Shown: positions 843-5,524, counted from the stretch's first letter. The stretch is 64,000 nucleotides of DNA from Ignavibacteria bacterium (GCA_019187405.1 JABAQZ010000004.1:124001-188000); one strand, 5' to 3'. Notes: generated by a model not told the origin, from the letters alone. A program made the numbers and translations.

Positions 843-1312
843 TTAGCAAGAAATCATTTCTTAAATTCAATTCTTTTTTTTTCTTATAGCAGCATCCACC
901 TTTTTAGTTTGACATTTCATTTTAGCTTTTTATCTGCGCGAGTATGTAATGTCCGAAACCGTTTATGAAGAAAAAATTGAATACAATTTTAATTTTAATT
1001 TTGTATATATTAAAACAGATATACGGAAAGTTTGTTCTTTTAATATAATATCTGATTAATCTGACTCTAACCCCAAATAGCATCGGAGCTTTCCGGATAT
1101 TACCCCAAAATAATAAATGTTTTAACGAAGAATCCCCCACACTTAAAATATTTTTTTTATTCCCCAAAAGTATTATTAACAGCATCGACAGCTTAGTTAA
1201 TATTTAGTCATTAGTTTGTGCTGTTTTGCCCATTAACTATCTGCAGATTTCTTTTTTAAATATCTGCAGCCGGTTTCATAAAAATAATTTTACAAACTTT
1301 AAAATTACTTTA
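843..1312. other. Intergenic region, AT-rich, no gene seen
   Basis: Between the carboxylase stop and the chosen start of the next gene I see only AT-rich sequence with poly-T and poly-A runs. An open frame on the minus strand (922-1185) has low-complexity, Ile/Phe/Lys-rich content and no recognizable domain, so I regard it as chance. The promoter of the downstream BNR protein should lie here, but no clear box stands out. Confidence 0.5.
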
Positions 1313-3226
1313 ATGGACAAAACATTACTACGCTTTTTATGTGTTACATTTCTTGCAGCGAGTTTTAATTTCTCTAAAATGAATCCGGATTTGTATGCGT
1401 ATGTGAATTCAGCTACTTCTTCTCCGGGCTCTGACGATGTTATCGTAAACAACAGTTTCAGAATTTTCCCTGATACAGTGCTTCAAGTGGAGACATCTGT
1501 TTACTGCAGACCTGAAAATCCATCTTTCATCGCAGCCGCAGCAATTACTGACATTTATCCAGGCGGATATACGATGGGCTTTTACAAGTCAACCAACGGA
1601 GGTTTTAACTGGAGCGGAACTGAAGCAATCAAGACTTCTTCTGGTTCGATAATTGTAACCATCGGAGATCCATCAATTTCAATTGATAAAAACGGGAAAA
1701 TAATACTTTCATTCATTGCTCCAAGCAGTAATGTTGGTGTAAGCTTTTCTACAAATAACGGATTAAACTGGTCGGCAACTACAAACATTCCTGGGGTAAC
1801 AATTCCCGATAAGATTTCAAACACATCCGACAATAATCCGTCAAGCCCTTATTACGGCAATACTTATATTGTTTACAATGAAAGAGAAGGCATCAACTTT
1901 TCTAGAACAACAAACGGCGGATTAAATTGGTCTGTATCTCAGAGAATAAGTCCAGCTTTAAATTTTGTAAGAACAGGCGCAAGTATTGCAGTTGGAAGCC
2001 TCGGTGAAATTTATGTTACATGGCCATTTCTGCTGGAAACTCAGAGATATGTGGGATTTGCAAAATCTACTGATGGAGGTGTAACCTGGACTTCATCCGA
2101 TTACGGCTTCCCGGTATTTCCGGTAAATACAGGATTCAGAATTAATCTTAATCTTGTTAAAACAAATGGTCTTCCGGTAATTGCCGTCGATAATTCAGGA
2201 GGACCAAGAAATGGTTGGATTTATGTAGTTTGCTCTGAACGAGCAGATCCGCTTTCACCGGCAACCGACAGCTGTGATATTGTAATTCACTGCTCGACAA
2301 ATAAAGGCAGTACATGGCCAATGTCATTTAGAGTTAATCAGGATTCCGGTCCTTACAGACATCAGGTATTTCCATCTGTAAATGTTGACAGTTACGGCGG
2401 TGTTAATGTAGTTTATTATGACAATAGAAACACACCGACAAAAGATTCTTTTGAAGTATATGTTTCTAGATCCGTTAATGGTGGATTTTCTTTTGAAGAT
2501 TATAAAGTATCTTCGGGAAAGTTTAAAATTAAACAGCTGCCATCAAACAAAATGCTTTTTGGAGTCCCTTCTTACATTGGATCTTACTGCGGAATTACTT
2601 CTTCCGAGAATAGAATTATTCCCTTATGGTATGATAATAAGACCGGTGAAGATTATCAGGCAACGACTTCCGTAATTCAGATTATTCCACAGTCTGTTAT
2701 AAAATTAATTCCGGAAGGATTTTATAATGAATATACCGACAGGTTAAACATTTGTGATTCTGTAGGTTTTTTTCTTAGAAACAGTTTATCTCCATACAGC
2801 AAAGTTGATAGCGCTTCCTGTACAATAGACTCACTTTCATTTGAAGCATTAGTCAAATTTAAAAATGTTATATCTGGAAATTATTTCATCGAGATACATC
2901 ACAGAAATTCTCTTGAAACCTGGAGTATGACTCCGGTAAATTATTCTTCAGTATCCGGGATTATCTATGATTTTTCTGATTCTTCATCAAAAGCTTTCGG
3001 AGAAAATATGGTCATAAAGGGTAGCAGGTACTGTATCTATTCGGGAGATGTAAACTGTGACGGGATAATAGATCCAACAGATTTGCTTGAAATTGATAAC
3101 AATGTTTCGGGATTTATAATCGGCTATCAGCCTACAGATCTTAACGGTGATTATATTACTGACTCATCTGATCTTCTGATTTGCGATAACAATATTAATA
3201 AATTTATTTCGAGGATAATTCCGTAG
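1313..3226 (+). CDS. Secreted BNR-repeat (sialidase-like propeller) protein with C-terminal dockerin-like module
   Basis: About 637 residues from the ATG at 1313. This start is preferred over one at 1226 because it opens a signal peptide (MDKTLLRFLCVTFLAASFNFS). The body carries at least six Asp-box/BNR motifs (STNGGFNWS, STNNGLNWS, TTNGGLNWS, STDGGVTWT, STNKGSTWP, SVNGGFSFE), the mark of a six-bladed sialidase-type propeller. Catalytic sialidase residues were not identified, so enzymatic activity is unproven. The last 180 residues form a beta module (SPYSKVDSA, HHRNSLETWS) followed by two EF-hand-like dockerin loops (SGDVNCDGIIDPTDLLEID; DLNGDYITDSSDLLICD) and end in IIP. Two other proteins in the window (14643-17414, 23740-26460) share this tail. 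There is no T9SS type-A sorting domain. It stands alone as a transcription unit. Confidence 0.75.
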   Translation: MDKTLLRFLCVTFLAASFNFSKMNPDLYAYVNSATSSPGSDDVIVNNSFRIFPDTVLQVETSVYCRPENPSFIAAAAITDIYPGGYTMGFYKSTNGGFNWSGTEAIKTSSGSIIVTIGDPSISIDKNGKIILSFIAPSSNVGVSFSTNNGLNWSATTNIPGVTIPDKISNTSDNNPSSPYYGNTYIVYNEREGINFSRTTNGGLNWSVSQRISPALNFVRTGASIAVGSLGEIYVTWPFLLETQRYVGFAKSTDGGVTWTSSDYGFPVFPVNTGFRINLNLVKTNGLPVIAVDNSGGPRNGWIYVVCSERADPLSPATDSCDIVIHCSTNKGSTWPMSFRVNQDSGPYRHQVFPSVNVDSYGGVNVVYYDNRNTPTKDSFEVYVSRSVNGGFSFEDYKVSSGKFKIKQLPSNKMLFGVPSYIGSYCGITSSENRIIPLWYDNKTGEDYQATTSVIQIIPQSVIKLIPEGFYNEYTDRLNICDSVGFFLRNSLSPYSKVDSASCTIDSLSFEALVKFKNVISGNYFIEIHHRNSLETWSMTPVNYSSVSGIIYDFSDSSSKAFGENMVIKGSRYCIYSGDVNCDGIIDPTDLLEIDNNVSGFIIGYQPTDLNGDYITDSSDLLICDNNINKFISRIIP

Positions 3227-3380: not shown

Positions 3381-3812
3381 TTATCTGCTTTCGCCGACAA
3401 TGGTATATTCTTCGGTTTTATTATTGAAATATTTTATTTTCAAATTTCCTGACAGCTTTTCTCCGGCAAACACTTCGCCGGTAAATTCAATAAGAACTTC
3501 CGAACCATTATAAACAGTTGTAAAAGATGAACTGAATACAATTACTTCAATTGCAATTGCTCTTCTTCCGTCAACTTCAGCTGTATAATTACTTTTATCT
3601 ACTGAAAAATTTTTAAACAAACCGCAGGAAACATTTCCTTTATCGAATACAATAACCTCATCCATAAGAACGGGTGTCCTGTCATTTTCAGGTGAAGCAA
3701 TCTCTACGGCTTTTCCAAAAAATATTTTCCCATCAAGCAGGTTTGGCTTAATTTGAAACCCGGAAAATAAAATTACCGAAAAGATAAATATGTAAATAAG
3801 AATTTTTTTCAT
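3381..3812 (-). CDS. Small secreted or membrane-anchored protein of unknown function
   Basis: A 143-residue protein with an N-terminal hydrophobic segment (MKKILIYIFIFSVILFSGF) that reads as an uncleaved anchor or a signal peptide without lipobox. The rest is rich in alternating hydrophobic residues, suggesting a beta fold, with a single cysteine (VSCGLF). I do not recognize a family. It is the last gene of the minus-strand MNIO cluster, but a hairpin with a T-tract (3812-3852) sits directly in front of its start codon, so it is probably expressed at a lower level than the peptide gene, through read-through. A link to the MNIO system is inferred only from position. Confidence 0.6.
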   Translation of the reverse strand: MKKILIYIFIFSVILFSGFQIKPNLLDGKIFFGKAVEIASPENDRTPVLMDEVIVFDKGNVSCGLFKNFSVDKSNYTAEVDGRRAIAIEVIVFSSSFTTVYNGSEVLIEFTGEVFAGEKLSGNLKIKYFNNKTEEYTIVGESR

Positions 3813-3852
3813 AAAAAAAATAAAAGCGGAACCTGTTTCCCAGATTCCGCTT
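3812..3852 (-). terminator. Intrinsic terminator/attenuator after the 71-residue peptide gene
   Basis: On the minus strand an 8-bp stem (AAGCGGAA at 3824-3831 pairing with TTCCGCTT at 3845-3852) is followed by a run of mostly T (complement of the A-run 3813-3823). The T-tract ends at the start codon of the downstream secreted protein gene. This geometry would end most transcripts after the peptide gene and leave the last gene to read-through. Confidence 0.7.
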
Positions 3853-3857
3853 CAAGA

Positions 3858-4073
3858 TTATTTTAGAGAGATGCTGACCTTGTCAACTGATTTTATTTTG
3901 TTGATTGTTTCTCTGATACCAGCAATGTCTCTCAGCTTACCAACAAAACCGCATGCAAGACAGCCGTATTTACCCTTCACTAATCCTACAATTCGGGATA
4001 CGTCAGTTGCTTTTACGTTTTTGTTAAGAGCGACAGTTACCCTGCCTAATCTTAAACTTGCAATTGATGCCAT
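3858..4073 (-). CDS. 71-residue peptide with YGCLACG core; candidate precursor substrate of the MNIO enzyme
   Basis: A small basic protein (MASIASLRLGRVTVALNKN...), with its only two cysteines in the centre in a CxxC arrangement, KGKYGCLACGFVGKL, and a helical-looking C-terminal segment (RETINKIKSVDKVSISLK). The start is fixed by an excellent Shine-Dalgarno AAGGAGG (complement of 4081-4087) 7 bases ahead, stronger than those of its neighbours, which suggests high expression. It lies 71 bases after the DUF2063-like partner and is followed at once by a terminator. Known MNIO enzymes (MbnB, BufB) modify cysteines in short precursor peptides encoded beside the enzyme and a partner protein; the size, Cys-Gly core and position fit this, but no family was recognized. 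It might instead be an unrelated small Cys protein, for example a metal-binding one. Confidence 0.6.
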   Translation of the reverse strand: MASIASLRLGRVTVALNKNVKATDVSRIVGLVKGKYGCLACGFVGKLRDIAGIRETINKIKSVDKVSISLK

Positions 4074-4080
4074 TTCATTA

Positions 4081-4087
4081 CCTCCTT
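4081..4087 (-). promoter_or_regulatory. Strong Shine-Dalgarno of the 71-residue peptide gene
   Basis: The complement reads AAGGAGG, 7 bases before the ATG at 4073. The genes next to it lack such a perfect ribosome binding site, so it both supports the start and suggests the peptide is made in excess over the enzymes. Confidence 0.7.
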
Positions 4088-4144
4088 TGCAGCAGTGTTA
4101 TTTTAATATATCCGCTTTCCCACCGCTTTATAAAAAAGCGAACA

Positions 4145-4666
4145 TTATTCTTTTACTTCGACTGTGTAAAAGTTTTCCAGTCTTTCACTGACAATTACTA
4201 AGAATTTTTTAATGCTTTGTTCGGGATATTTACCATTGTCGAGTATGAATCTAAATATATCATCCGGCTCAAAATCAGATTCTATTGAATATTCTTTGTC
4301 GCTCCCGAGATTTACATTTATCAATGCAAGTTCAAATCTTGAAACAAATGAAATCAATTTATCATCATCATCAGAAAGATATTGCAGAAAAGTTTTCCCC
4401 AACTCTTCAATGTATCCTGAAAAATTAATATCACGGTAAAAACTTTCTACTTTCTCCTGAAACTTGTCAAGCTTAATGAGTAATTCTGAAGTTATCGCGC
4501 AATATTCTCTTATACCATGAGCTCTCCAGTAAATTACTATATCATTTAATACCCGGAAATTTTTCGACTCGGCAACTTCTCTGAAATATTCGTCTTTAAA
4601 ATCAAGCGAATTTCTTCTTCCTTTGAGAAGGTCCAGATATCCGGTCTGAATTTCTTTTAAATTCAT
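4145..4666 (-). CDS. DUF2063/MbnC-BufC-like partner protein of the MNIO enzyme
   Basis: A 173-residue soluble protein starting directly after the stop codon of the DUF692 gene (4667), so the two are translationally coupled. It opens with LKEIQTGYLDLLKG, like the LxxLQ...F start of DUF2063 proteins, and has near its C-terminal part SFVSRFELALINVN, comparable to the conserved (R/F)xExA segment of that family. In methanobactin and bufferin systems such partners bind the precursor peptide and form a complex with the iron enzyme. Similarity is distant and partly inferred from gene order; a specific family assignment needs a profile search. Confidence 0.6.
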   Translation of the reverse strand: MNLKEIQTGYLDLLKGRRNSLDFKDEYFREVAESKNFRVLNDIVIYWRAHGIREYCAITSELLIKLDKFQEKVESFYRDINFSGYIEELGKTFLQYLSDDDDKLISFVSRFELALINVNLGSDKEYSIESDFEPDDIFRFILDNGKYPEQSIKKFLVIVSERLENFYTVEVKE

Positions 4667-5524
4667 TTAATTGAAAATTCCGTTTAATCTTTTATATTCT
4701 TCTGCAATGACATCTTCGCCAAGCAAAGGTATAGCTTCATCAAGCAATTCATAATTTATCAGCTTAACGCAATTGCCAGGTAAATTAATTATTTTTTTTG
4801 TAAGCTCAATTGTAGAATCCATGACAGTTCCGCAATGAGCATCGAGCATAAATCCATCCTCAATGGAGCCGTTGGCAATGTGAATCTCTTTAACTTTTGA
4901 GAGATCCAGTTCATCAATATATCCTTCAATATCAAATCCGTGATTATAATTGTCACATTCGAGATTATAGACATCCAAAATAAAACCGCATCCGGTACTT
5001 TCCGATATCTTATTCATAAATTCAGCTTCCCTGAAATCGGATTTATAATCCGGAACAATCCTGATAATATTTTCAAGCAGAAATTCCTTGTTATATCTTT
5101 TCATTATTTCATTTACTCTTTCGCAAATCATGTCAAGAGTTTCATTTGTCCGGGGCAGAGAAAGCATTGTTCCAAGCGATTCACCGCTGACTTTTGTATA
5201 TCCAAGATGCTCGCTGTGCCATTCAAAATCAATTTTATCATAAAGACTGTCAAGAAGATTCAGATATTCTTCGGAATATCCGTCAAACGATCCAATTGAA
5301 AGTCCGACGCCGTGCACTACTATTTTTTTATCTGCAGACAGAGCTTTTATCTCATCGATAATTTCATTCGGTATGTAACTTCTCTTTCCGTCAAATGTAG
5401 ATATTGAATCAGGCGTTATTTCAAGGTAGTTTATATATGGATAAATTTTTTCAAGCAGTGAAGGATTTTTAAATTCATAAGTTGCTCCGAGAAAAGTATT
5501 TTGCATGCTTTTAATTTTTCGCAA
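4667..5524 (-). CDS. DUF692 family multinuclear non-heme iron-dependent oxidative enzyme (MNIO; MbnB/BufB-like)
   Basis: 285 residues, the usual size for a DUF692 TIM barrel. Family motifs appear in order: YINYLEITPD near the N-terminus, VVHGVGLSIG, the hallmark EWHSEHLGY, EFLLENI, CGFILDVYNLECDN and KEIHIANGS...DAHCGTV. The His, Glu, Asp and Asn residues in these motifs are those that bind the two or three irons in characterized members. Such enzymes use O2 to rearrange cysteine (or other) residues in ribosomal peptides. It is first in a minus-strand set followed without gap by the partner, then by a 71-residue CxxC peptide. The start could also be the internal ATG six codons later. Function as a peptide-modifying oxygenase is well supported by family and context; the product is unknown. 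Confidence 0.88.
   Translation of the reverse strand: MRKIKSMQNTFLGATYEFKNPSLLEKIYPYINYLEITPDSISTFDGKRSYIPNEIIDEIKALSADKKIVVHGVGLSIGSFDGYSEEYLNLLDSLYDKIDFEWHSEHLGYTKVSGESLGTMLSLPRTNETLDMICERVNEIMKRYNKEFLLENIIRIVPDYKSDFREAEFMNKISESTGCGFILDVYNLECDNYNHGFDIEGYIDELDLSKVKEIHIANGSIEDGFMLDAHCGTVMDSTIELTKKIINLPGNCVKLINYELLDEAIPLLGEDVIAEEYKRLNGIFN

Follow-up and report, generated by a model that had tools for sequence, protein, structure and literature searches.

Gene systems that combine an MNIO enzyme, a partner protein and a cysteine-containing peptide are already known. In MbnBC, TglHI and BufBC, substrate binding is the task of the partner, and the iron enzyme uses O2 to oxidize a cysteine; MNIO chemistry requires both electrons and iron. 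The reactions vary across described systems: those with type 1 partners make 5-thiooxazoles (PMC12668002), ChrH and DybH make a macrocycle from CPACGMG (PMC12636315), and those with type 2 partners (TglHI, ApyH and PbsC) differ among themselves in their reactions (PMC12452194). This second partner class, "PME-type 2", was defined by Antoine et al. 2025, and precursors without a signal peptide correlate with it (PMC12452194). Here, we describe an MNIO locus in a 64,000-nucleotide stretch of DNA from an Ignavibacteria bacterium (GCA_019187405.1 JABAQZ010000004.1:124001-188000), called the window below, in which a DUF692-type MNIO and a partner are encoded next to a 71-aa (amino acid) peptide carrying one CxxC pair. 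The three genes probably constitute a cassette that modifies a small cytosolic protein by oxidation after its translation; the 71-aa peptide is most likely the MNIO substrate, with its cysteines as the target. Judged by sequence, the system is neither methanobactin, bufferin nor chryseobasin.

The three-gene cassette and its recurrence

All three genes lie on the minus strand and are read in the order MNIO, partner, peptide. The cassette comprises the following features:

4667..5506, minus strand: MNIO (DUF692) oxidase gene, PF05114 match; ATG at 5506, longer reading from TTG at 5524
4145..4666, minus strand: predicted type 2 MNIO partner gene, with a helical DUF2063-like domain and an RRE-like C-terminal part (AlphaFold2 model, VIA-align)
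4080..4088, minus strand: Shine-Dalgarno sequence aaaggaggt of the peptide gene, upstream of its ATG
3858..4073, minus strand: 71-aa CxxC peptide gene, presumed MNIO substrate, kept beside the MNIO in relatives
4026..4043, minus strand: codons for residues 11-16, a conserved strand near the N terminus and candidate for recognition, from alignment and model
3939..3968, minus strand: codons for YGCLACGFVG (residues 36-45), the motif presumed to be modified, with invariant cysteines and a loop in the low-confidence model
3823..3853, minus strand: intrinsic terminator behind the peptide gene, a 13-bp stem followed by a T-run

An earlier sequence-only reading of this locus had described a DUF692 enzyme with full motifs, a partner starting right after its stop codon, and a 71-residue peptide with one cysteine pair whose gene has a strong Shine-Dalgarno sequence and a terminator behind it. 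Each of these elements was recovered: the enzyme matches PF05114 and keeps nine iron ligands, the partner ATG comes immediately (0 nt) after the MNIO stop, the peptide frame (4073-3858, minus strand) includes GCLACG, and both the Shine-Dalgarno sequence and the terminator were located. The region holds two terminator-like sites, against 1.0 +/- 0.9 expected from shuffles. For the MNIO, the start at ATG 5506, giving MQNTFLGATYEF, is likelier than TTG 5524 because the counterpart in genome G022, from another genus of the same order, begins with MHNISLGATYEF; undetermined bases interrupt the N-terminal part of the G022 gene. By comparison with this genome, the 71-aa open reading frame (MASIASLRLGRVTVALNKNVKATDVSRIVGLVKGKYGCLACGFVGKLRDIAGIRETINKIKSVDKVSISLK) is a real gene, since its length and identity are kept (same length, 59-61% identity) and the differences are concentrated at the third codon position (20/18/40 at positions 1/2/3).

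The association of peptide and enzyme recurs in relatives of the window. Among 44 genomes of the order, the MNIO is found in two and the 71-aa peptide in the same two; G022, which holds the one good homologue within the order, has it in an identical three-gene arrangement. In another family of the class (G526, reached by a wider MNIO search), an MNIO 50% identical to that of the window is directly preceded by a 93-aa peptide with the motif GCPSCGLAG. In another class of the phylum (G795, found by the peptide profile), a 72-aa peptide with GCTACGLNG stands directly before an MNIO of 43% identity. The gene order shifts from MNIO-partner-peptide (window, G022) to peptide-MNIO-partner (G526, G795), the set of genes is unchanged, and MNIO and partner are spaced by 0-3 nt in all four genomes. 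A related peptide accordingly stands beside the MNIO in 4/4 clusters of the window enzyme clade. The sequence-only reading had placed the system in Ignavibacteriota-like bacteria, a range that proved too narrow: the clade extends to G526, from a different family of the class, and to G795, from elsewhere in the phylum.

A second clade combines enzyme and partner in one polypeptide. In G372 and G223, an MNIO-partner protein of ~487 residues is encoded directly after peptides with CPACHSGF and CPTCYSGF. Further clusters of this type were gathered from MNIO matches in the genus of G795, and the surrounding regions were read. Naturally fused proteins of ~487 aa, an MNIO joined to a partner-like C-terminal domain, were observed in L039, L058, L108 and L159-L166, with a CPxC-x-SGF peptide directly upstream where the sequence is complete; in all 10 of the 10 fusion clusters with complete upstream sequence, a related CxxC peptide lies at -30 to +18 nt of the MNIO frame. 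The C-terminal part of the fusions aligns weakly with the window partner (hhalign probability 53, E 1e-4), which is only suggestive of homology. The peptides of the two types have in common a hydrophobic strand, then a helix and then the CxxC motif, and they are likely homologous. In a tree of 54 MNIO sequences, the four window-type enzymes group with support of 98/96 and the fusions with 100/100, next to a group of MNIOs with CPACGMG peptides (100/100) and one of bufferin-type and other MNIOs (98/92). Throughout, Cys 38 and Cys 41 are invariant (14/14 aligned peptides), and identity to the window peptide outside its nearest relative is 14-32%.

In searches of 395 genomes of the phylum, the peptide profile returned only peptides adjoining an MNIO: three sampled window- or fusion-type members and a Cys-less paralogue in the G223 cluster. 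The next matches (E 0.002 or worse) fall in large or stop-containing frames and are at chance level. Weak peptide matches elsewhere (E 0.001 to 1), with internal stops, large unrelated reading frames and no MNIO nearby, were also taken as chance. The genome contigs and viral contigs searched held no close relative of the peptide, profiles of the peptide and of the enzyme found nothing in viral contigs, and peptide searches of plasmids were empty. There was also no defence-system match. One MNIO match in genome contigs (L075) was rejected, being a 27% match within a 477-aa frame that reads as a MiaB-type protein. Homologues of the peptide away from a DUF692/MNIO gene were sought and none was found, so that the claim that peptide and enzyme travel together is borne out by 14 linked clusters.

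These distributions bear on an alternative in which the MNIO pair has lost its own substrate and the peptide adjoins it by chance. Only two genomes of the order carry the peptide, and both share flanking genes on one side, as a chance neighbour would allow. Against this, peptide and enzyme stay together in G526 and G795 despite the changed gene order and again in 10 fusion-type loci, and the three genes behave as one unit when compared with relatives in which the site is empty. On these genomic comparisons, the chance-neighbour explanation is largely refuted and appears highly improbable.

The empty sites also define the extent of the unit. In G022, the peptide, partner and MNIO genes stand alone between clpB and a gene for a 143-aa protein, whereas in four genomes without the cassette (G012, from the genus of G022, and G021, G001 and G016) the 143-aa gene adjoins clpB; gain or loss thus concerned a unit of exactly three genes. 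In the window, the three genes lie between the 143-aa gene and murB. The interval first proposed for the system, 3381-5524, does contain the three-gene system, but it also takes in this independent neighbour:

3381..3812, minus strand: 143-aa exported protein gene, chromosomal neighbour outside the cassette, beyond the terminator

The 143-aa gene is present in 8/44 genomes of the order. It was considered as a fourth component and rejected, as it occurs without an MNIO in 6 of these 8 genomes and stays beside clpB there. The neighbourhood of this gene (window 3381-3812, L151-L158) is conserved with clpB and, in several genomes, with a convergent BNR-repeat protein. In the window, the exported protein encoded at 1226-3226 is BNR-repeat-like and has a weak dockerin-like match at its C terminus; its gene is convergent to the cassette and syntenic in relatives.

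Enzyme and partner compared with described systems

The window MNIO matches PF05114 (MbnB_TglH_ChrH) with E=1.7e-49 and 168.9 bits, against a curated cut-off of 25. None of the named NCBIfam models for MNIOs reaches its cut-off, with scores of 159.5 bits against 310 for BufB (the bufferin maturase, the best-scoring model), 115.8 against 360 for HvfB, 57 against 400 for ApyH, 51.9 against 600 for ChrH and 32.8 against 325 for MbnB. In TglH, the iron ligands are His71, His107, Glu151, Asp184, His216 and Glu258, and the third iron is held by Asp184, Asn187, Asp229 and His231 (PMC10880893). The corresponding residues H71, H106, E151, D184, N187, H215, D228, H230 and E259 of the window enzyme (numbered from the TTG reading) do not vary in five relatives, including two with an identity of only 21-25%. 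E151, D184, N187, H215, D228 and H230 were aligned to the TglH ligands, H71 and H106 were aligned to 3bww, and E259 was paired with TglH E258 by position and invariance only. As all nine TglH iron ligands have invariant counterparts, the window MNIO is expected to be active.

The 173-aa partner has no match in Pfam or NCBIfam, and neither a DUF2063 nor an MbnC signature is present. In its AlphaFold2 model, built with three sequences (pLDDT 79, pTM 0.73), the N-terminal part is helical and the chain ends in strand-helix-strand-strand. No match of this model reached significance with Foldseek alone. When the Foldseek candidates were realigned with VIA-align, TglI took ranks 1-2 (8hci_A, Z 11.3, then 11.2; 140 residues), with NGO1945 (3dee) at Z 8.8, MbnC (7dz9_C) at Z 5.4 and the first unrelated chain at 5.0. 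TglI, NGO1945 and MbnC are MNIO partners of known structure, and the RRE-like C-terminal segment (residues 126-172) falls inside the structurally matched range. Because the modeled fold matches known MNIO partners and the DUF2063 signature is missing, the window partner fits the PME-type 2 class. Its occurrence with a peptide that lacks a signal peptide agrees with the correlation noted for this class (PMC12452194), and both points favour placing the window system with the TglHI, ApyH and PbsC group.

Within that group, TglH-TglI (pearlin/3-thiaglutamate; PDB 8hci, 8hi7) shares the same nine ligand positions and, at Z 11.3, supplies the closest known partner fold. Its substrate is a different one: the C-terminal cysteine of TglA is added by a peptide aminoacyl-tRNA ligase and then loses a carbon, whereas the cysteine pair of the window peptide is encoded mid-peptide. 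By inspection, no peptide aminoacyl-tRNA ligase lies around the cassette in the window, G526 or G795; the rest of the genome was not searched. Methanobactin MbnB-MbnC likewise pairs an MNIO with a partner of related fold (Z 5.4), but the window enzyme falls far below the MbnB cut-off, and the locus has no MbnC match and no MbnA-type precursor.

Bufferins, oxazolins and captophorins (BufB-BufC, HvfB-HvfC) combine an MNIO, a partner and a cysteine peptide, as does the window. A related metallophore, in which each cysteine would become a 5-thiooxazole and the product would bind copper, could be considered because the bufferin maturase model scores highest and the thiooxazole is the commonest known MNIO outcome (PMC12668002). 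That score is nevertheless below the equivalog cut-off of 310 bits. Bufferin and captophorin precursors are exported and carry EGKCG or DUF2282, with a DUF2063 partner and DoxX, while at the window the peptide lacks a signal peptide and an EGKCG or DUF2282 region, the partner is without the DUF2063 signature and DoxX is not a neighbour. The window clade also lies outside the tree group that holds bufferin-type MNIOs, and a bufferin-like product is unlikely.

Chryseobasin and DybA, the substrates of ChrH and DybH, resemble the window peptide in having two cysteines in a CxxCG core. Chemistry of this type would turn the pair into a macrocycle with a heterocycle, as ChrH and DybH do on CPACGMG, here at an internal CxxCGxxG. 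The window motif C-x-x-C-G-x-x-G does resemble CPxCGxG, and the ChrH subfamily includes some precursors with an internal motif and some substrates that are proteins of >30 kDa (PMC12636315). The chryseobasin core is, however, a C-terminal CPxCGxG served by an MNIO that is remote in sequence from the window enzyme, which scores 51.9 against 600 bits on the ChrH model and is separate in the tree from the MNIOs with CPACGMG peptides. Members of the ChrH subfamily as a rule have no separate partner gene, unlike the clusters described here, all of which encode a partner. We regard chryseobasin-type chemistry as quite improbable at this locus.

The closest description of a peptide of this kind is adjamnio-7 (sequence similarity network (SSN) cluster 7; WP_078758616, Novilysobacter spongiicola), predicted in 2025 as CxxC precursors without a signal peptide beside an MNIO (PMC12452194). 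Compared by description only, the window peptide shares these three properties, and, like it, adjamnio-7 precursors are structured enough for modeling. Adjamnio-7 was described from a gammaproteobacterium, without experiment; on the same descriptive comparison, the two families may or may not be the same. In the literature searched, no description was found of the window enzyme clade, the peptide family, MNIO-partner fusions with CxxC peptides or Cys-less companions, and no paper on MNIOs with CxxC, Mucilaginibacter or Ignavibacteria was found. The suggestion of a new substrate class therefore stands in part: the family itself was not found described, but signal-peptide-less CxxC precursors beside an MNIO had already been predicted as adjamnio-7 (PMC12452194).

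Other MNIO loci that were sampled carry different precursors (EGKCG repeats, DGCKGK repeats and CPACGMG ends), so MNIO neighbourhoods do not in general contain a CxxC peptide. In L061-L065, MNIO genes are preceded by long DGCKGK-type repeat precursors, several of which have a signal-peptide-like start; their plan is similar to that of EGKCG repeats, from which they nevertheless differ. L117, from an IncF plasmid of Escherichia albertii (NZ_CP030786.2), contains an MNIO, a DUF2063-type partner, DoxX, a metallo-hydrolase and a cytochrome ubiquinol oxidase gene, and this plasmid cluster is bufferin-like.

Proposed modification of a small CxxC protein

The 71-aa peptide has a calculated pI of 10.4. 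As the sequence-only reading had stated, it contains neither a methanobactin nor a bufferin (EGKCG) core, its cysteines are mid-peptide (CxxCG at residues 38-42 of 71) and an obvious signal peptide is not apparent, no stretch near the N terminus being hydrophobic (the best mean hydropathy over 12 residues is 1.1). No Pfam or NCBIfam family was matched, nor any known redox or metal-carrier family. Matches of the peptide profile to cytochrome c in the PDB were dismissed as reflecting the common CxxC/H pattern only, and a weak PHROG match (0.005) is to a family without assigned function. In the structural model, of low confidence (pLDDT 66), the peptide is arranged as strand-helix-loop-helix-strand with the CxxC in the loop. 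Foldseek found no significant match for this model, which is too uncertain to interpret. The hydrophobic strand pattern near the N terminus (residues 11-16), a strand in the model, is kept in the peptide alignment.

The following sequence of events is proposed by analogy with MbnBC, TglHI and BufBC. Firstly, the partner would bind the 71-aa protein, probably with its RRE-like C-terminal segment contacting the conserved strand near the N terminus of the peptide; recognition of a strand is suggested because RRE domains bind leaders in this way. The partner would then present the GCxxCG loop to the multi-iron MNIO. Finally, the MNIO would use O2 to oxidize one or both cysteines. Neither an exporter nor a protease is part of the three-gene unit, which, together with the missing signal peptide, suggests an intracellular product. 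It probably has its function there, with metal or redox handling as one example. The proposal that the peptide is the substrate of the neighbouring enzymes is well supported genomically.

Several observations weigh against this assignment. The peptide looks like a small folded protein (model pLDDT 66), unlike the typical leader-core precursor of a ribosomally synthesized and post-translationally modified peptide (RiPP). Support within the window clade comes from four loci, two of which are syntenic relatives, and the profile by which the fusion-clade peptides were related to the window peptide had been seeded with sequences of both types. Finally, in three fusion-type clusters an intact CxxC peptide has a second family member close by, with other residues in place of both cysteines:

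L058:2726-2992, minus strand: Cys-less copy with GYPDGYAGF
L163:2240-2467, plus strand: Cys-less copy with GYPDSYTGF
L162:530-787, minus strand: Cys-less copy with GYPNYNQR

Loss of both cysteines had been named as evidence against a substrate role and was looked for; both are kept in all 14 aligned peptides, and Cys-less forms occur only as second copies. Since these are extra copies beside an intact peptide, they do not refute the substrate role. They do show, at the level of sequence, that the fold has some use without cysteines.

The Cys-less copies keep alive a reading in which the 71-aa protein is a third subunit, for example a small redox or metal protein with a CxxC that would reduce the MNIO-partner complex or load it with iron, with the true substrate encoded elsewhere. 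Such a subunit would suit an enzyme whose chemistry needs electrons and iron, and a protein with no signal peptide, a folded appearance and exactly one CxxC. The gene order speaks for a precursor instead, as the peptide stands directly before the MNIO in G526, G795 and the fusion clade, which is the usual place of an MNIO precursor (PMC12452194). No other recurring candidate precursor is found in these clusters, and the lack of a match to any known redox or metal-carrier family also counts against this reading; we consider the role of a third subunit distinctly unlikely.

Taking the 71-aa peptide as the substrate, a more specific possibility can be put forward tentatively, and we hold it to be somewhat less probable than not. 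The substrate would be a small folded cytosolic protein rather than a leader-core peptide. The MNIO, working with the type 2 partner, would convert the internal GCxxCG loop of this protein to a new group, be it a cross-link, a heterocycle or another oxidized form, giving an intracellular cofactor-like or metal-binding protein through an undescribed pathway of Bacteroidota-type bacteria. If so, the Cys-less companions would serve the modified protein as structural or regulatory partners.

MNIO enzymes are the source of several unusual chemical groups, but most of those that work with a type 2 partner and an exportless precursor are uncharacterized. The cassette is the smallest possible test case for these systems, with three genes, one cysteine pair and a recognizable family of 14 clusters. 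Within this family, natural variation extends to split and fused enzyme and partner, to gene orders A-B-C and B-C-A, to the motifs C-x-x-C-G-x-x-G and C-P-x-C-x-S-G-F, and to the Cys-less companions. The cassette bears on whether MNIOs modify small folded cytosolic proteins and on the fate of the CxxC pair.

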